Counted from the first letter of the stretch, positions 7,037-23,451 are shown. The stretch: DNA of 23,451 bases from a virus (IMGVR_UViG_3300025543_000220:1-23451), one strand, 5' to 3'. The notes: generated by a model not told the origin, from the sequence alone. Numbers and translations: made by a program.

Positions 7037-9800
7037 TGTCTGCTTCCTTAGCTATTGTCTTTGCCCCGATAAACTCTGGATGAGATGAATCAAGCCACAC
7101 ACAACGAGTGGGAGTTGTGGTCATAGGCATGCCTTTACCCATATCTTTGTTATACACTTTAATACAACAACCTTTGGCTTTCAGCTCAGCAATAGTGCGG
7201 TTGTAGTCCACTTGCTTAAGGTCCCAATATTTCCTCAGCTTACTCACCGCTATATACACTATGTTTGCGTCTGGCTCTTCGCGTATATAAAGTGCGCCTC
7301 GTGGCTCCAAGTAAGGCCGCTTAGTCTTACCCGAACGAGCGTCTGCTTTCGCGTCGATGGATAGAACGTTAGGCACGTGCTCGTTAATAAACTCACCTAT
7401 CAAAGCAAAGCAGTCGCTTACCGGAGCTACCGTTTCCAAACGCAGTTTTTTAATTTCGGGTGCTACTCTATGGAATATGCGTTTCATGTCGAATTCTATG
7501 ATACCGGCTTCCACTGCCAATACCCCCGCAGCTATATTCGAGGCTATAATAGCAGACCAGTTTCTTTCCCGTTGCGTTAGGCTCAGCTCTTTGTCTATCT
7601 TAGCCTGCACTCCAAGCAACGTCTTTTTCATGTGCTCAGGGTTCGCCATAACGTATTGAATAAACGGTACGATTGCATGCCCAAAGTTTTGGCTTAGCTG
7701 GTGGTCAAACATCTGTTTACCTTCCGCCGTAGAAATTACATCCACGCCTTGGTAGTCAATGGTAAACTCAATGATGCGCATCAGCTCGCCATCAGGTGCG
7801 TTCTTCAAGCTCATTAGCTTCTGATAAAAGGAGGAATTGCTCGAAGACAAGGTTATGTTACGCCACGTAATCTCGTTCTTGCGGTTGGCGTTTATGTGCA
7901 TCTGGGCTTTCTCTTTACCCCTGCCTTGCGAAGCAGCGTAAGCAAACTTGCCTACCTCTGTCTCGTCTAAGTTAGTAAGCTCGTCCATAGTGTTAACTAT
8001 ATTATTCAACGTGCCTAGCTTGTTTATACGTCCGACTGCGGTGTCGTCTGGAGTACCTAGCAACATCTCAGGGTCACCCGCAATACTGTTAGCCATACGC
8101 AAGATTGTAGTTTTACCTGTGCCTGCGTGGGGGTGGACTAAGTTTATGATGGCCCCTTTCTGCCCCGTGAACTTAAGTAAGGCAGAGCCGAACCCACTAA
8201 GCGCAGCAAAGGCGTGCACCTCCAACCCCGGCCTATTGTACATGTTAAATACTTCTTGCCACTTCTCGTAAGACCCCCGGGGTTGTAAGAAGTCACTGTA
8301 TACGGTAGTAACAGTAGAAGGCGGCGAGTGGTATACACCGTCTACTTTTATTTCACTTTCTCCAACGATAAAAGAAGTGTCTCCGTCTGCCCAACCAAAT
8401 TGTACGCGCATTTTATCTGCTGCCTTTTCTGTGCCCAATGCTTTAATGGAGTCAATGACATATTTATGCAAATGGGGAGTAGATTTTTTGTCTGCTAGGA
8501 TACCGTTCTTAGCTAACACTCTTGTAAGTTCTCTGGAATCTAGCTGTTCATTCTGTATAGTAAACTCTCGTTTGCCGTCTTTAGGGAGGTATACGACCCC
8601 TATAGCCACGTCGCCATCGTTAGGGTCAGTCATACGTTGGCTTATATAGAAATCATATTCGTACACAAAGTGCGCTTCGCCTTCCTTATCCTGCACATAG
8701 ATGCCGCCGTTCTCTCCTTTTAAGTAAGGAGGGCGATACTTAACAGGCCCCACACTATTACTAGCTCTTTTAACCGTTTGCCCTAGCGTTATGGGGGTCT
8801 TTATCTTGCCTTTGTGCGGGCACCCTTTGCACCCTTCAGGGTTGTGCGAAGCAAACTCCGTACACGAATGCGGGCCTTTAATACCGTGCATCTTTCGTTG
8901 CGTTGCTTCAAAAGAATAATCAGGGTGACCCTCTGATAAGATGACCGCCGCCTTCATGCTGTCGCTACAAAACTTAGCAATTGATAGCGCGTCGAACCAA
9001 CGTGGTTCTTCTAAAGATTGCCTAGTCCGGATGCAATCTTGAAGCTGTAAGCACCCGTCGCTGCGTGTAACTATGCGTTTGAACACGCTAGTGTAATTTG
9101 AGTATTCCAATTCTTCAAGCGGGCTTAGCGCTACTGCCCCGCGTTCTACTTCTTCAGCTTCAGAATCTACACCTAGTATTTCTCTTAGGTCGTCGGGTGT
9201 AATTCGTTTATCGTTTGGGCGTATAACAGTTACTGGAGCAGGAGGATCGTACTTTTGATTAAAGGTCCCCGGTACTCTTAAGATGCGAGACGCATCAAAT
9301 ACTCTTTGGTCGGCGTAAAACTCTTGAGTTACACAGACTTGCTTCAAACGTTTGCAGATGGGTAGCCACCGCGTCCTTGGCACTTCTTCAGTTAGCGCCC
9401 AGTATGCGTGTATGCCACCCCCAGAATCTATTACAGCGGGGAAAGGTAACCCCACAGTTTCACAAAACTCCTTCAGCGCGAGCTGCGCCTCTTTCTTAGT
9501 TTCGTACCCCTTAGGTTGGCCCGTTGTATCGTCTATATCGTTGGCCTTACCTGTACCGCAGTCGATGTCTACCCAAACAGACTGCAAAGATTCTACGTTT
9601 GTTGCTTCTCTGCTTCCGGCTTCTGTAATTTTACCTAACATGAAGTAAACATCTTTGCGTTGCTTAACGAACTGCTCGACTAAGATGTCTACTTCTGCTC
9701 GGTCCTTTGTATACTCTGATTTGAAGCCTGAGCCTGCGCCAACCACACAGTAATAGCCGCCCGTAGGGACTACATAGTCTATGAGGTTGAAGTCAGTCAT
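7005..9800 (-). CDS. Replicative primase-helicase fusion (archaeo-eukaryotic primase plus DUF927-like ATPase)
   Basis: This 931-residue protein should prime and unwind DNA at the phage fork. The N-terminal half looks like a RepB-type archaeo-eukaryotic primase: VDID metal motif (D78, D80), SGGGIH (126-131), and D169 before RILRVPGTF. A likely zinc site, C-x(8-10)-CxxCPH, follows near residues 312-330. The C-terminal half is a helicase-type ATPase with Walker A HAGTGKTT (K563) and Walker B NTMDE (D606, E607), resembling DUF927 proteins. An Arg- and Lys-rich C-terminal region follows. The ATG overlaps the stop of the HTH gene as ATGA, so translation is coupled. The family assignment comes from motifs; DUF927 versus another SF3-like ATPase is not certain. 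Confidence 0.87.
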   Translation of the reverse strand: MTDFNLIDYVVPTGGYYCVVGAGSGFKSEYTKDRAEVDILVEQFVKQRKDVYFMLGKITEAGSREATNVESLQSVWVDIDCGTGKANDIDDTTGQPKGYETKKEAQLALKEFCETVGLPFPAVIDSGGGIHAYWALTEEVPRTRWLPICKRLKQVCVTQEFYADQRVFDASRILRVPGTFNQKYDPPAPVTVIRPNDKRITPDDLREILGVDSEAEEVERGAVALSPLEELEYSNYTSVFKRIVTRSDGCLQLQDCIRTRQSLEEPRWFDALSIAKFCSDSMKAAVILSEGHPDYSFEATQRKMHGIKGPHSCTEFASHNPEGCKGCPHKGKIKTPITLGQTVKRASNSVGPVKYRPPYLKGENGGIYVQDKEGEAHFVYEYDFYISQRMTDPNDGDVAIGVVYLPKDGKREFTIQNEQLDSRELTRVLAKNGILADKKSTPHLHKYVIDSIKALGTEKAADKMRVQFGWADGDTSFIVGESEIKVDGVYHSPPSTVTTVYSDFLQPRGSYEKWQEVFNMYNRPGLEVHAFAALSGFGSALLKFTGQKGAIINLVHPHAGTGKTTILRMANSIAGDPEMLLGTPDDTAVGRINKLGTLNNIVNTMDELTNLDETEVGKFAYAASQGRGKEKAQMHINANRKNEITWRNITLSSSNSSFYQKLMSLKNAPDGELMRIIEFTIDYQGVDVISTAEGKQMFDHQLSQNFGHAIVPFIQYVMANPEHMKKTLLGVQAKIDKELSLTQRERNWSAIIASNIAAGVLAVEAGIIEFDMKRIFHRVAPEIKKLRLETVAPVSDCFALIGEFINEHVPNVLSIDAKADARSGKTKRPYLEPRGALYIREEPDANIVYIAVSKLRKYWDLKQVDYNRTIAELKAKGCCIKVYNKDMGKGMPMTTTPTRCVWLDSSHPEFIGAKTIAKEADNASGESELPD

Positions 9801-10030
9801 TTTTTATACTCTATTATTAGTTGTTTAATGCTAGCTGTTAGTTCTTTACTAGGCGTGTGCACTCCTGAAAACCAGTTGTAAACAGTCTGCCTGCTTACCC
9901 CCAGTTGACTGGCAACTTGGGCGGCGGGAACTTCCTTCCGGATGCACACGCGACCAAGTTTTACCCCGAGCATAGAGCTATCAGCTAATTTGTTTAGGCT
10001 ACCCAGCCTCGTTGTGTAGCCATAGCTCAT
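9797..10030 (-). CDS. Small XRE-like helix-turn-helix regulator
   Basis: The product has 77 residues. A helix-turn-helix, AAQVASQLGVSRQTVYNWF, lies at about residues 36-54 and is followed by a TPSKELTASIKQLI helix, the usual layout of Cro/XRE-type DNA-binding proteins. I chose the ATG at 10030 because it overlaps the TAA of the SSB gene as TAATG. The ATG at 10048 would lie inside the SSB tail without a better ribosome binding site. It sits between the SSB and primase-helicase genes, so it could autoregulate replication genes or mark an origin-binding function. No operator is visible next to it. Confidence 0.8.
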   Translation of the reverse strand: MSYGYTTRLGSLNKLADSSMLGVKLGRVCIRKEVPAAQVASQLGVSRQTVYNWFSGVHTPSKELTASIKQLIIEYKK

Positions 10031-11367
10031 TAGTCTTCGTCGCCCCATATGTCAATGATGTCAGACATCTCTTCGTCTTCGACCGGTGCAGCTTCTTTCT
10101 TTGTCTTTCGTTTAACAGGCGCGGCAACTTCCGCCTCTTCTTCGTCGTCAAACAAATCAGGCTGCTTAGTAATCTGCCCTTCCGTTTCAAACATGCCATC
10201 GTCGTCTTCAGCGTCAGCTTCCGTACTAACTTTGGCAAACATGCCCTTGCTTTGGTCAGCGGTAAAGCCGTCAACCGCATCGAAAGGAGACGCAGGCTTG
10301 TACGGGATATACTCAAGCACCTGTACACCACGGAGCCTAAGGGATACACCAGTAGATGCCATCTTGAACGGGATCATTTCGACCGCTATGCTTACTGTAC
10401 TACCTGTAGTCAGCATAAAGTCAGCGCCAAGGCGTTCGTTCTGGGCATCAAACTGAGCCGGTGGCTCGGTCACACTGCCGCTATAAGCTGCCTTCAGACT
10501 AGTCTTACCTATAAAGCTACCGTCGTCTTGCTTCTTGAACGGCATCTCTAGTTTAACAGGCCAAGACTTATCGCGACTTTTAGCGTTGGTGTAAGCGTCC
10601 TGCATAATTTTATACAGGCCCTTAGCTTGATCCGCAGACAAACTAAAGTCTAGCTCGTAACGCGCGCCGTCTTCGGCAGGGTCGCAGGGGACGCTTTTGC
10701 CGTTCTTCCCTGCCTTGTTGTCAAACCGGTACGGCTTGTCCAGACGCGGGTAACGAGCTTCAACGTTCTTGATTATGTGAAATTGATTAGCCATGTATAG
10801 TTCCTCTGAGTTTCCTATAAAAGGATTGGTTGGTTGCGAAGCCGCTTTTAGTTGCTGCTTCACGTTCGCAAGTTCTTCCTCGGCTAAAGGTCGAACGGGT
10901 TTAAAATATATCCTGTACGAGTTGTAATGTTCGACGAGATATAATTCGGTTAAAATATCTTCTACTTCTTCTTGGTTCTTCTCTAAGTATTCGATGTGCT
11001 TGTACCACCCAAGCCTATTAGTTTCTTTAGCAAATAAGCTGCTTGCGCTTATGCGTAGCTCACAAACTATGTTGTCTTCAGGTAGTAATACTTTAATAAC
11101 AGTATAAAACTTACACGCCGCGCCCCGGTTATGCCCGCCGCTTTTAACGCTTTTAGTGCAGTCCATGCACCGGCCAGCTTGCACCTTGCTATCAGGCACG
11201 TTGTCATCAGGTCGCGCACACCCGGTAGACCAACACGCTAAGCCATTACTGTCGTAGTAACTCCTAGATAATTCTCCTCTATCAACTATCACTACTTGTA
11301 GCGAATCGCAGGGGGAGTTGGTCCGTGGGTGTATGAAACACCCATTTTCATTTTTTAATCGAATCAT
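10030..11367 (-). CDS. Zinc-ribbon protein fused to a phage single-stranded DNA-binding domain
   Basis: The 445 residues form two parts. Residues 1-190 hold cysteines arranged like a zinc ribbon (C45, C50, C67, C70, with C85 nearby); I do not know this domain's function. From about residue 192 the sequence looks like a stand-alone phage ssDNA-binding protein: an MANQFHIIKNVEARYP start, a beta-rich core, then a long acidic tail ending DIIDIWGDED, typical of T7 gp2.5-type proteins that recruit polymerase and helicase through their tail. An internal ATG at 10794 (M192) follows AGAGGAA, so a separate SSB could also be made. The start overlaps the previous stop as ATGA. The SSB assignment rests on layout and tail, not on a clear signature. 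Confidence 0.75.
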   Translation of the reverse strand: MIRLKNENGCFIHPRTNSPCDSLQVVIVDRGELSRSYYDSNGLACWSTGCARPDDNVPDSKVQAGRCMDCTKSVKSGGHNRGAACKFYTVIKVLLPEDNIVCELRISASSLFAKETNRLGWYKHIEYLEKNQEEVEDILTELYLVEHYNSYRIYFKPVRPLAEEELANVKQQLKAASQPTNPFIGNSEELYMANQFHIIKNVEARYPRLDKPYRFDNKAGKNGKSVPCDPAEDGARYELDFSLSADQAKGLYKIMQDAYTNAKSRDKSWPVKLEMPFKKQDDGSFIGKTSLKAAYSGSVTEPPAQFDAQNERLGADFMLTTGSTVSIAVEMIPFKMASTGVSLRLRGVQVLEYIPYKPASPFDAVDGFTADQSKGMFAKVSTEADAEDDDGMFETEGQITKQPDLFDDEEEAEVAAPVKRKTKKEAAPVEDEEMSDIIDIWGDED

Positions 11368-19510: not shown

Positions 19511-19537
19511 AAAAAAACCCCGCACTAAGGCGGGGTT
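19511..19537 (-). terminator. Strong intrinsic terminator closing the MoxR-vWA operon
   Basis: Read leftward, a perfect 8-bp stem AACCCCGC/GCGGGGTT with a 6-base loop runs straight into a T tract (7 T in all, two paired). This is a textbook Rho-independent terminator in the - direction. In the + direction the stem is followed only by AATCTTT, so it should act mainly one way. It lies 12 bases after a palindrome copy. Confidence 0.92.
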
Positions 19538-19549
19538 AATCTTTCAGGC

Positions 19550-19568
19550 AACCTATAATTTATAGGTT
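19550..19568. repeat. 19-bp perfect palindrome, copy 1
   Basis: AACCTATAATTTATAGGTT has 9-bp arms around one central base. Here it overlaps the TAA of the ribbon-helix-helix gene by two bases and precedes the terminator. It is identical to copies at 21572 and 22780. Confidence 0.95.
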
Positions 19569-19767
19569 ACTCGTCGTTCTCTTCAGCAAAAAGCAATGCA
19601 GAAGACTGAAGCTCTTGTACATGCGCCTCTAACACATTGCGTATCTCGGCGGTGTAACTAGAATGATGCTCTTTGAAGTAGTCTACTACATACTCTGGTA
19701 GTCGCACGTTAGTGTGTACCATTGCAGGTTTATTACCTTTGCCTCTGCGTCTAACTGTTGAGTTCAT
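19567..19767 (-). CDS. Ribbon-helix-helix DNA-binding protein
   Basis: The 66-residue product fits the Arc/MetJ/CopG fold. A basic N-terminal arm (VRRRGKGNK) precedes the DNA-contacting strand MVHTNVRLP, then helix 1 (EYVVDYFKEHH) and helix 2 (SYTAEIRNVLEAHVQEL), with an acidic tail. Such proteins bind palindromic operators as dimers. It is the last gene of block A, begins inside the 3' end of the 314-residue gene (17-base overlap, GAGGAG upstream), and its stop codon touches palindrome copy 1. No toxin gene lies next to it, so it looks like a regulator rather than an antitoxin. The palindromes of this operon are its obvious candidate targets (inference). Confidence 0.82.
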   Translation of the reverse strand: MNSTVRRRGKGNKPAMVHTNVRLPEYVVDYFKEHHSSYTAEIRNVLEAHVQELQSSALLFAEENDE

Positions 19768-20695
19768 TTGCTAGCTCCTCTGCTATCCAAAACCTTTCTG
19801 CTTCCATCTTGAAGCCTACCTCATTTACAAAACTGTTGTCGTCTGCCAACTTAAGCATACCTAACGCACCTCGTACTTTAATAGGTATACTGTTGCGATT
19901 GCATGTCTGCACCCTAGTCGAGTCCTTACGCCACATCTGATACTCCTCTCCTACGGCTTGGACATACAGACCCTTGCCTAAGCGTTGCGCATTGTAGGCT
20001 TCCTCGACTAGCTCGAAGTCGTCCTTAGCGTCCTCGTACTTCGCCATCAAATGACTCTGGTTGGTAGCCTCGAAATACTGTAGTACCGCTTGCGATAGCT
20101 GAGAGTCAGAAAAAACCGCGCGTTCCAACTCTTCTGTTATACGCTGCTTTGCGCCACGTCTTTTGTATATTGTATCGCTGTGCGCTGAGGACACCGCCGT
20201 TTTCATTAAGCCTGCCATAGACTGCATCGTTTCCACCTTAGTCATACCGTAGAAATACTTACGAAGTATAGTCGCTGCTTTAGACTGGCTCGCGGTCTTC
20301 ATAATACTGCGGCGGTGCAAGTCCTCTGCAATGCGCGCATTAGAAAAGTTTAGCGCCCCGGTGTCTTCATAGTGCACATGCCCTACACACTCTAGCTTAT
20401 CGAAAACATACATACCGTCGAACACTTCTTCGTAGTCTAGCTTTACGCAGAACCTTAGCTGCGGCATCTTTACTGCGGTATGCCGTAGTAGGTTGTATGC
20501 CATTCGATGCGCTTTTGATGCCCCTGAGTAACGAGAAACAACTTCGGGGTCGAACTCTCGCTTTTCCCCTTCATGTTCTCCTCTCCAGTGATGCACATTA
20601 CTCGGCATATCTGCAAAGGTGTTAAGCGCGTTGTTCTTTATCTTTGTAACTAACTCGTCTACAGTTCCGTTAACTCTAACTAATTTGTTAAACAT
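19751..20695 (-). CDS. Unknown 314-residue protein of the MoxR-vWA operon
   Basis: I do not recognise a family. The protein is soluble, mixed alpha/beta, with a basic central helical region (about residues 120-190, including SKAATILRKYFYGMTKVETM) and an acidic helical part around 200-230 (KYEDAKDDFELVEEAYNAQR). There is no signal peptide, membrane segment or obvious catalytic motif. The ATG at 20695 follows GAGGAG, which overlaps the TGA of the preceding gene (10 bases apart). Its constant company with the ATPase and vWA genes suggests a substrate or adaptor role, which is inference from context only. Confidence 0.72.
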   Translation of the reverse strand: MFNKLVRVNGTVDELVTKIKNNALNTFADMPSNVHHWRGEHEGEKREFDPEVVSRYSGASKAHRMAYNLLRHTAVKMPQLRFCVKLDYEEVFDGMYVFDKLECVGHVHYEDTGALNFSNARIAEDLHRRSIMKTASQSKAATILRKYFYGMTKVETMQSMAGLMKTAVSSAHSDTIYKRRGAKQRITEELERAVFSDSQLSQAVLQYFEATNQSHLMAKYEDAKDDFELVEEAYNAQRLGKGLYVQAVGEEYQMWRKDSTRVQTCNRNSIPIKVRGALGMLKLADDNSFVNEVGFKMEAERFWIAEELANELNS

Positions 20696-20705
20696 TTTGT
20701 TCTCC

Positions 20706-21560
20706 TCACCACTCGTATGATTTAATTATCTCGTCAACTTCTTTCTTCACTTCCTCACGCACCTCGGGCTGATCCTTGAACATGTCCTTTGTCTTGCCCT
20801 CCATGATCTCCTCTAGCTTCTTGCGTGCTTCTTCTAACTTGGGGTCTTTGGTAACATTCATGTGCTTAAGCATACGGCATAGCTCCAGTGGGTTAGATAC
20901 AAAAGTATCATGCCACCGTTTGTCGTCTGCGTCCCCAACCACCGCGCACTTACTACTAATATGTTCTAACTCCTTGCGCAGCCTACGCTCACTCTCTTTA
21001 ACCGCGTCTTGTATCTTGCGTTCTACTTCGTCATCACAGGCAGCGCGTAGCTCTTGCATCTCCTGCTCTGGTAGGTCTATGCACAGGTGACCACTAGCCG
21101 GAACAGGCGCAACTACAAAGTTCCATGCAAACTTCTGTAGTATCTCCCTTACAGGGGGGTAGTCGTTCTCGTTAAAGATGTCGCCTCTGTATTCTTTAGC
21201 AACGTCACGATAGGTAGAGTACTTGTCCTCGAACACATCAATTAGTCGCCCAAACTCCTGCTTCTTCCAGTTATGTTGCGCCTTGTAGTCGATGAACAAA
21301 CTCGTAGGACACAGGCGATAACCCTTGTCGTCCCAAGGTAGGGTCATAGCTGCATGCCACAACCGAACATTGGCGGCATACTTCTGTATGTCCTTGTGCC
21401 CAACCGAACCTACCATCAGGTTGTCGTACAGGCGTGTCGCTTGCGGGTCAGCGTTCTTGCTTGCTGCTAACTCCTGCTCTAGCTGCTTGTTACGCTTAGT
21501 CGCACCCCATACGCTTATGTTCAACTTCACTAGTACTGCACTGTTTGCTATTGCACTCAT
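20706..21560 (-). CDS. Unknown helical protein, possible DUF3150-like partner of the MoxR-vWA pair
   Basis: The 284-residue product starts MSAIANSAVLVKLNISVWGA, has a central GYRLCPTSLF segment and a long charged coiled-coil C-terminal third (residues 170-284, rich in Glu and Lys). The 'LNISxW' start, an all-helical body and the place beside an ATPase/vWA pair recall proteins annotated DUF3150, but I hold this loosely. The ATG at 21560 is preferred over the adjoining GTG at 21563 because GGAGAAGAG lies upstream at normal distance. Palindrome copy 2 lies directly before that ribosome binding site. No catalytic motif is visible. Confidence 0.72.
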   Translation of the reverse strand: MSAIANSAVLVKLNISVWGATKRNKQLEQELAASKNADPQATRLYDNLMVGSVGHKDIQKYAANVRLWHAAMTLPWDDKGYRLCPTSLFIDYKAQHNWKKQEFGRLIDVFEDKYSTYRDVAKEYRGDIFNENDYPPVREILQKFAWNFVVAPVPASGHLCIDLPEQEMQELRAACDDEVERKIQDAVKESERRLRKELEHISSKCAVVGDADDKRWHDTFVSNPLELCRMLKHMNVTKDPKLEEARKKLEEIMEGKTKDMFKDQPEVREEVKKEVDEIIKSYEW

Positions 21561-21571
21561 CACTCTTCTCC

Positions 21572-21590
21572 AACCTATAATTTATAGGTT
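21572..21590. repeat. 19-bp perfect palindrome, copy 2
   Basis: Identical to copies 1 and 3. It sits between the last base of the vWA gene stop codon (one base shared) and the GGAGAA ribosome binding site of the next gene. The match with copy 3 extends to 27 bases in all, taking in TA before and GGAGAA after. Confidence 0.95.
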
Positions 21591-22768
21591 TAATCAATTT
21601 GAATTGTTTTGCCCACAGGGGCGGTTATCTTTTGGTCGTTCGTTATTGCCCACAGAATTGGAGCAGTCCAATTCCCCCAACTACTAATCTCGCCATCAGT
21701 CAGCATGATTACGCAGTCAGGCTTGATGCCCTTCTCTTTCAGGTAGTCAGATACACACGTCGGATCAGTGCCGCCTCCACCCGTTGCAGTTTTCATAGCA
21801 GGGGCAGTGGTCAGCTCGTCGCTGGAGTAAATCTCATGGCTCTCCACCTGTCCGTCCCAATCAATGAAGTGTATCTTGTCGATAGATACTGCCTTAACAA
21901 TACCAAGTATCTCGCTCGTCACATCTCTGAGTCTGTCCTTGAAGAACATAGAACCCGAAGTGTCACGCGCAATCACCGCCTCGTTGATGCTGTTACCTTG
22001 TAGCGTAGGCATAATCACATCTTGATGCAGGAACCTACGGTTAGGTCGTCGCCACGTAGACTGCTCCTTCTTCTTACATGTCGAGTTCATAAACATACGC
22101 AGCAACGCGCGCCAACTTATCTTGGGCGTGACTAGCTCCTTTAACCCGAGCGCGTCTTGTAGACCGCCTGCTCCTGCTTTGGCATCGGCATGCAGTCCTT
22201 GGCGTATCGCTTGCTTGATGTCGTCCGCTAGCTTCTCTTTCTCCTTGGCGTCCAAACCCTTCGCGCCTTCCCAATCATGCTCATCGAATCCTCCGCCGCC
22301 GCCCGAGTCTTCCTCCTGCTCGGGTATGTCGTTGAAGATTCGCTTCACCGTCCACTCGTGGTACTTGCGGTCATACAGTCCGATTGCCTTGCCGTCATCT
22401 CCAACAGGCATCTCGGTCAGTATGCGCTGCGGGTCAGCCACTTGTATGCGGTCATTGATCCAGAAGTCAGTCGCCATGTTGGTACGCCTAGCATCTTGCT
22501 CGGCTAGTCTGCGGTAGGTAACGAGGTGCATACCTGCCTTGTGCAACCACTCATGTATCAAGACGAATGCCGCGCCCTTGTCCCCATTCTTTATCTGCTT
22601 GAATAGAAAGTCAGGGTTGAACCAACAGTCCCGTCCGTTAGTACACGCTGTAGGTACGTCAGTAGTGAGATAAGTCTTACCATGCATAGCCACACCGCGT
22701 AGTAAGCCAAACTCCTTCGAGCGCATCAGTCCGATTTTGATCGCTTTGAATTTTCTGTCTGCTAACAT
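21590..22768 (-). CDS. Metallopeptidase-like / von Willebrand A protein (DUF2201 type, CobT-like)
   Basis: The 392 residues join two parts. The N-terminal part carries a zinc-site signature HEWLH (72-76) in FVLIHEWLHKAGMH, as in DUF2201 'putative metallopeptidase' proteins. A Gly/Asp/Glu-rich linker (about 150-180) leads to a vWA domain with a full metal-ion-dependent adhesion site: DTSGS (269-273), T334 in GGGTDPT, and D358 in LTDGE. vWA proteins paired with MoxR ATPases (RavA-ViaA, NorQ-NorD, CobS-CobT) help remodel or insert metal into a target. The ATPase lies just upstream here. The ATG at 22768 follows GGAG and palindrome copy 3. The target is unknown. Confidence 0.88.
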   Translation of the reverse strand: MLADRKFKAIKIGLMRSKEFGLLRGVAMHGKTYLTTDVPTACTNGRDCWFNPDFLFKQIKNGDKGAAFVLIHEWLHKAGMHLVTYRRLAEQDARRTNMATDFWINDRIQVADPQRILTEMPVGDDGKAIGLYDRKYHEWTVKRIFNDIPEQEEDSGGGGGFDEHDWEGAKGLDAKEKEKLADDIKQAIRQGLHADAKAGAGGLQDALGLKELVTPKISWRALLRMFMNSTCKKKEQSTWRRPNRRFLHQDVIMPTLQGNSINEAVIARDTSGSMFFKDRLRDVTSEILGIVKAVSIDKIHFIDWDGQVESHEIYSSDELTTAPAMKTATGGGGTDPTCVSDYLKEKGIKPDCVIMLTDGEISSWGNWTAPILWAITNDQKITAPVGKTIQID

Positions 22769-22779
22769 AGTTGTTCTCC

Positions 22780-22798
22780 AACCTATAATTTATAGGTT
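22780..22798. repeat. 19-bp perfect palindrome, copy 3
   Basis: Identical to copies 1 and 2. It overlaps the first transcribed base-pairs of the junction between the ATPase stop codon (one shared base) and the GGAGAA site of the vWA gene, exactly as copy 2 does at the next junction. Confidence 0.95.
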
Positions 22799-23451
22799 TA
22801 CAGTAAGTCTTCGTTGTCGGCTGCCCACAGTGCGAAGTCAGGGTTAGTGAAGGCGATCTGCTTCTTAGACGGATGCCGTGCCAATGTCACACAGAATATG
22901 ACTTGGAACTCCTCCTCCATGCGGCGTAGGTACTTCATAATATTGCTGAGCGTGCCCTTCTCTACATGCTCCAGTAGTCCGAAGGTCAGTACCGCCCGCG
23001 CACCTGCGTCGTCTGGGATCATCGCTGTGTCGGGGGACGTGATGATAGTGCGCACTGAGGGTAGCGACTCTTGGAACCGAATGAATGACGCTTGGCTCTC
23101 CGCATACGGCGCACCTGCTGCACCTGTTAGAGAAGCGACAAGGGAATCTTCATCGAAGTACTCACGCTGCCAGATGATACGGCTACTAATCTCAAGGGTA
23201 CGAGGTGAGACCGCATTGTCCTGCGGGTTAGCAGGGTGGAATATAAACTCATTCTGAGCGCCATCGAGGTACGAAGCTAAGGCTTGCGGGTATCTATCTA
23301 CCCATGCCATTACTACAGGGTGAATCCCATTAGCTGCTGCCCATTGCAACCACTCGGTCGCGTTAGCCTTGCGCACTGTAAGCTCGACTACACGTTGCCT
23401 AGTGTGCTGCGCGAGACCATCGCCCACGCCGTCCGTATCCATGTTACCCAT
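22798..23451 (-). CDS. MoxR-type AAA+ ATPase, C-terminal part (cut by the window edge)
   Basis: The visible 217 residues start at the window edge in a GNMDTDGVGDGLAQHTRQR segment, which is the sensor 1 / arginine-finger region of MoxR/CobS-type AAA+ ATPases. A helical lid follows, with a DAGARAVLTFGLLE segment and an acidic end. The Walker A and B motifs must lie beyond 23451, so the ATG at the very edge is not the true start. MoxR ATPases work with vWA partners to remodel proteins or drive metal chelation; the vWA gene follows after 29 bases and one palindrome. The AAA+ assignment depends on this one motif block and on the partner gene. Confidence 0.8.
   Translation of the reverse strand: MGNMDTDGVGDGLAQHTRQRVVELTVRKANATEWLQWAAANGIHPVVMAWVDRYPQALASYLDGAQNEFIFHPANPQDNAVSPRTLEISSRIIWQREYFDEDSLVASLTGAAGAPYAESQASFIRFQESLPSVRTIITSPDTAMIPDDAGARAVLTFGLLEHVEKGTLSNIMKYLRRMEEEFQVIFCVTLARHPSKKQIAFTNPDFALWAADNEDLL

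Follow-up and report, generated by a model that had tools for sequence, protein, structure and literature searches.

Genome-specific palindromes at early gene junctions of related phages: candidate DNA operators that co-vary with the first gene of the early region

The immunity regions of lambdoid phages (cI and its operators) combine inverted-repeat operators with an exchangeable specificity gene. The c1 operators of P1, control elements of a temperate phage, are asymmetric and scattered, many sites serving one repressor. In cluster A mycobacteriophages (L5, Bxb1, TipsytheTRex) one repressor likewise has many sites, at promoters and in short intergenic regions, and the site motif is specific to the phage type, diverging along with the repressor (PMC6550527, PMC9283540). 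These sites, known as stoperators, are 13-14 bp long, asymmetric and oriented with transcription; they are bound by a monomer with a helix-turn-helix (HTH) and a stoperator domain. Here we analyze a junction-associated palindrome in a 23,451-base stretch of viral DNA (hereafter the window) and its counterparts in related phages.

The word AACCTATAATTTATAGGTT occurs in the window exactly three times, starting at 19550, 21572 and 22780, with no further match at up to three mismatches; the chance expectation, estimated from 100 dinucleotide shuffles, is 0.03 matches. This bears out the original prediction of three identical copies and none elsewhere. The word had also been called a perfect palindrome, which is true of its 8-base arms but not of the 3-base spacer (AAT on the coding strand), so that strictly it is an inverted repeat. 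All genes here lie on the minus strand, as do the features listed below. The front operon enters the window with an AAA ATPase gene (22798-23451; phrog_1297, E 1e-26), which is cut by the window end and which in relatives is preceded by a palindrome. Copy 3 (22780-22798) separates the stop codon of the ATPase gene from the ribosome site of a vWA/metallopeptidase-like gene (DUF2201; 21590-22768). Copy 2 (21572-21590) is placed likewise, between the vWA gene's stop codon and the ribosome site that serves a 285-aa gene of unknown function (20706-21563). Then follow a fast-evolving 314-aa gene, F4 (19751-20695), and the gene of a 66-aa protein (19567-19767) that by eye has the look of a ribbon-helix-helix (RHH) protein, searches of Pfam and NCBIfam with it being without a match. 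Copy 1 (19550-19568) overlaps the stop codon of this last gene, just ahead of the intrinsic terminator of the operon (19511-19537), a CCCCGC...GCGGGG stem with a T-run read directly from the sequence. As had been noted, each copy shares one or two bases with a stop codon (one at 22780 and 21572, two at 19550); the match between copies 2 and 3 extends to 27 bases, and both lead at once into GGAGAA. The proposed placement at stop-codon/ribosome-site junctions thus describes copies 2 and 3, but not copy 1, which is followed by the terminator instead of a ribosome site.

An exact-word scan matched only a close fragment (L005) and one other contig. Related phages were gathered via the vWA gene and then by a terminase-anchored scan, and arms were picked by hand among repeated inverted repeats in contigs that are partial and in some cases possibly chimeric (G001). 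Most of the nearer vWA relatives have an inverted repeat recurring at gene junctions, with arms that do not vary inside one genome but change from one phage to the next; they include AACCTATA, AACCTACA, GCGTACGG, AACATTGA, GAGTTTAGG and others. Arms of the AACCTACA type are found in G002-G008 and G016, GCGTACGG in G009, G011 and G012, AACATTGA in G018, AAGCTAGGG in G013, AGGTACGG in G017, ACCTAACA in G020 and TGTTAGTC in G030, while the terminase-anchored scan contributed GCATGTAGT, TTGCATAGG, TTAGTGAC, CCTGATAC, GATGTTAGGT and, again, GAGTTTAGG. At homologous junctions the flanks are conserved and the palindrome is exchanged, as seen before the vWA gene in G011/G018 and before the ATPase gene in G014/G015. 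Spacers vary, and inside some genomes they are either 3 or 4 bases long. The search of related phages suggested originally therefore finds the junction sites retained, but in other letters. Exact conservation in the window had been attributed to selection or recent copying. Selection is upheld; recent copying is wrong, because spacers and flanks differ where the arms remain the same. In several more distant relatives a repeated palindrome was not found at the search settings used. In the Planktothrix phage isolate Pag-Yong1 (L264, OL906435), whose ATPase and vWA genes are of the kind found here, GGTTCAG-N-CTGAACC is present 21 times, counting close variants with no more than one mismatch; simple shuffles contain none. 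They lie mostly directly upstream of early gene starts, and a few flank the early region on both sides; we did not find a description of this palindrome in the literature searched. The first-gene product of Pag-Yong1 is UMO76074. Judged from these genomes, the palindrome system extends beyond the window, each phage apparently marking its early gene junctions with its own word.

The sites, typically 3-13 per contig and 15-23 bp long, are far from randomly placed. Of the 204 sites that 32 phage data sets yielded, 121 precede a ribosome site with its start codon and 24 a terminator-like element, so that 144 are at one or the other (one site was counted as both); among 1,920 positions drawn at random from these regions, 13% have a start and 1% a terminator. 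Most relatives also have a terminator-like element after their last site. A promoter-like sequence follows six of the 204 sites, and sites just upstream of -35 elements are present in L162, L213, L230, L196 and L212. In G004 and G018 sites are confined to that part of the early region which is transcribed first, with none in the structural genes or the later replication genes, and in three long records all copies are inside one stretch of ~7-10 kb. In F99-type phages (L257:4940-4995; first genes of L217 and G001), the first gene's leader palindrome lies between a ribosome-site-like GGAG and the start codon, and not ahead of the GGAG.

The original prediction allowed for an operator, an mRNA hairpin or both. 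On the hairpin view, the stem beside the ribosome site would be recognised in mRNA, either by a protein of the phage or by a nuclease, so as to control translation or cut the polycistronic transcript. Such a role fits the majority of sites, which are directly upstream of a ribosome site, and it also predicts that sites adjoin the ribosome site in long leaders too, as they do. Moreover, every site folds in isolation as a short stem (-3.9 to -12.6 kcal/mol), and the spacers are free to vary, as loops may. However, the unpaired arm positions are of the wrong kind for RNA: among 1,655 pairs, in which homologous sites are not independent, we counted 7 G-U, 22 A-C and 28 other combinations. All three transcribed copies of L231 read AACCTAAA...TCTAGGTT, giving an A-C mismatch in the message, three copies of G020 have C-A, and half-site changes in relatives are uncompensated. 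Since G-U is rarer than A-C and six sites lie upstream of predicted promoters, the site appears to act as DNA rather than as an RNA stem. We thus consider the hairpin explanation unlikely and retain the operator as the serious option of the two. Rfam models gave no match in the window. Early or N4-type hairpin promoters were also considered and rejected, since the spacers vary freely and the sites have little room before the ribosome site.

Conservation of the arms but not of the spacers implies a reader of the sequence. RHH proteins recognise short words in DNA, many of them inverted repeats, and the protein encoded just ahead of copy 1 had been named as the natural ligand, binding the palindromes as its operator. 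Its gene is indeed present in every near-group phage checked, including G009, G011, G012, G017 and G018. With operators of the Arc/MetJ/CopG type, however, the contact strand would be expected to change along with the operator, and the putative contact strand, VHVNVRL, is the same in G011 and G018 despite their unrelated GCGTACGG and AACATTGA arms; its H-x-N-x-R pattern is nearly invariant over at least seven arm types. This makes the RHH protein a very unlikely reader. Two other candidates were set aside. The F4 gene (about 50% identity where its neighbours have 85%) seemed to co-vary with the arms in three pairs of phages, yet its identity is 48% in pairs that share their arms and 87% in a pair whose arms differ; it is simply fast-evolving, unlinked to the arms. 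The HTH protein F16 (9797-10048) has a recognition helix that is constant over arm types. A second inverted repeat, GTACCAC-NNN-GTGGTAC, occurs inside sigma-70-like promoters (TTGACA ... TACAAT/TATAAT) of the front operon and is conserved in G004 (L099), G001, G002, G003, G005, G006, G007 and G016. It may be a promoter operator, perhaps that of the RHH protein.

What does track the arms is the early region's first gene. Sites often flank it, and several phages give it a terminator of its own. Its families follow the arm types: phages with AACCTACA, AACCTAGA or AACATTGA arms have F35, those with GCGTACGG arms F53 and those with GAGTTTAGG arms F99, the other first genes being unrelated singletons. 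Among 24 phages, the mean arm score is 6.1 for pairs with homologous first genes versus 1.5 for the other pairs (0 of 5,000 permutations). With ATPase identity removed, the partial correlation between arms and first gene is 0.54 (0 of 2,000 permutations, p<0.0005), whereas that between arms and ATPase identity, with first-gene homology removed, is 0.00 (p 0.48); phage pairs are not independent in any of these statistics. Among individual pairs, G011/G018 is the sharpest case. G011 and G018 have unrelated arms and unrelated first genes, while most of their shared genes are 87-100% identical (ATPase 97-99%, the 285-aa gene 100%, polymerase 98%, vWA 88-95% depending on the alignment), although a few other genes differ too. 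In G001 and L213 the ATPases are 99% identical, the first genes 33%, and the arms are different but related. Out of sample, L257, fetched solely through first-gene homology, has arms carrying AGTTTAG, like its relatives.

Within F35 (eight proteins), one column within the conserved N-terminal part (R95 in G002) splits the arm types, with Arg (FDRRWQY) in AACCTACA phages and Gln (FDQRW[KQ]Y) in AACCTAGA/AACCTARA phages. L238 is nearest to the Arg group in sequence, yet it has both the Gln and AACCTAGA arms. The motif of L231 led us to expect arms of the AACCTAGA and not the AACCTACA type; one half-site is indeed AACCTAGA, but the other is AACCTAAA, so that the agreement is partial. Four more columns segregate in the poorly aligned C-terminal part of the family. 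Searches of Pfam, PHROGs, NCBIfam and PDB sequences with the first genes gave no convincing match, and the families show no detectable mutual homology, known domain or fold. AlphaFold models are all-helical (F35 pLDDT 76, F99 pLDDT 80), and fold searches with both were without a convincing match, the best VIA-align hit, FasR of the TetR family (Z 6.1), being within helical-bundle noise and rejected. The families share a weak common segment, CG[ML]S (hhalign E 0.016), that looks HTH-like by eye. We infer DNA binding by the first-gene product, which seems probable, from co-variation and not from fold. For the window itself the reader is assigned from relatives, its own first gene lying beyond the window end.

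Several genomes are mosaic with respect to the sites. In G001 (L095), which may be either a recombinant or a chimeric assembly, an ATPase/vWA gene set with GAGTTTAGG sites is followed by another with AACCTACA sites. The near-identical G014 (L142) and G015 (L143) have mixed palindromes (AACCTAGA, AACCTTGA, AAGGTAGG and a hybrid); together with L231 they look as if caught half-way through a change of specificity. The more distant relatives G025, G026 and G022 (L145, L146, L118-L120) contain 10-18 copies of CTAAC-AWT-GTTAG, some of them apparently inside coding sequence, conserved between phages and with a sense-strand bias (ACCTAAC..GTTAGGG).

We regard it as reasonably probable that the palindromes are multi-copy DNA operators and that the product of the early first gene, outside the window in this case, probably binds them as a dimer and shuts off the early operon. 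A small orphan protein, mostly helical, would bind at the site near its own promoter and limit initiation, and at most junctions of the front operon up to the terminator, where it would block elongation as a roadblock, in the manner of stoperators. In this way the early operon, and perhaps also a phage of like type that enters the cell, would be shut off. The same co-variation with the first gene would be expected if its DNA sites served instead to activate transcription, to partition or pack the genome, or to control replication, and some sites do lie upstream of -35 elements. Most, however, are downstream of promoters, at the junctions of one operon and with no promoter beside each, and the structural genes of G004 and G018 are free of them, even if in Pag-Yong1 a few copies lie outside the early region, to either side; we find such another role rather improbable. 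Alternatively, the palindromes could be boundary linkers that let related phages swap gene modules by recombination, as the mosaic phages might suggest, with two arm types in series (G001) or mixed types (G014/G015). But 19 bp is short for recombination, the spacers differ among copies, and linkers predict no coupling to any one gene, which leaves this explanation hardly credible.

If the palindromes are operators of the first-gene product, then it is possible, as a more tentative proposition, that these phages, in which no integrase was detected, carry an exchangeable immunity-like module. It would consist of an early protein lacking any recognised DNA-binding domain and its private palindromes at each early gene junction, all changing together upon replacement of the protein, even where most early genes are about 90% or more identical. 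It is an old question how the specificity of a regulator can change in step with that of many dispersed targets. G011 and G018, near-identical and differing in the regulator and in all sites found, would together with the half-way phages make stepwise co-evolution directly testable. If true, the module would provide type-specific silencing or superinfection exclusion in phages without sign of integration, and the palindrome would be a sequence tag predicting immunity type from metagenomes.

Compared with known systems, the sites resemble the operators of lambdoid immunity regions in being inverted repeats that go with an exchangeable specificity gene; the lambdoid sites, however, are few and clustered at two promoters, whereas here there is one per gene junction over about 10 kb. 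With the P1 c1 operators they would share dispersed sites for one repressor, but the P1 sites are asymmetric. The likeness to cluster A stoperators is closer. There, too, many sites are found at promoters and junctions (here 3-13 per contig and 21 in Pag-Yong1, mostly at junctions and terminators), and the arms follow the first gene here as the motif follows the repressor there, provided that the first gene is, as we infer, the repressor. On the other hand, the sites here are inverted repeats of 15-23 bp, not asymmetric, oriented words of 13-14 bp, and the first-gene protein has no recognised domain in the two families examined. Neither a tyrosine integrase nor a serine resolvase was found in 22 related records (33-74 kb, possibly incomplete). 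Because of this, and of the asymmetry and orientation of cluster A sites, we do not file the palindromes under stoperators. The best reading by analogy is that, in phages without a detected integrase, a palindromic system would work in the way that stoperators do.
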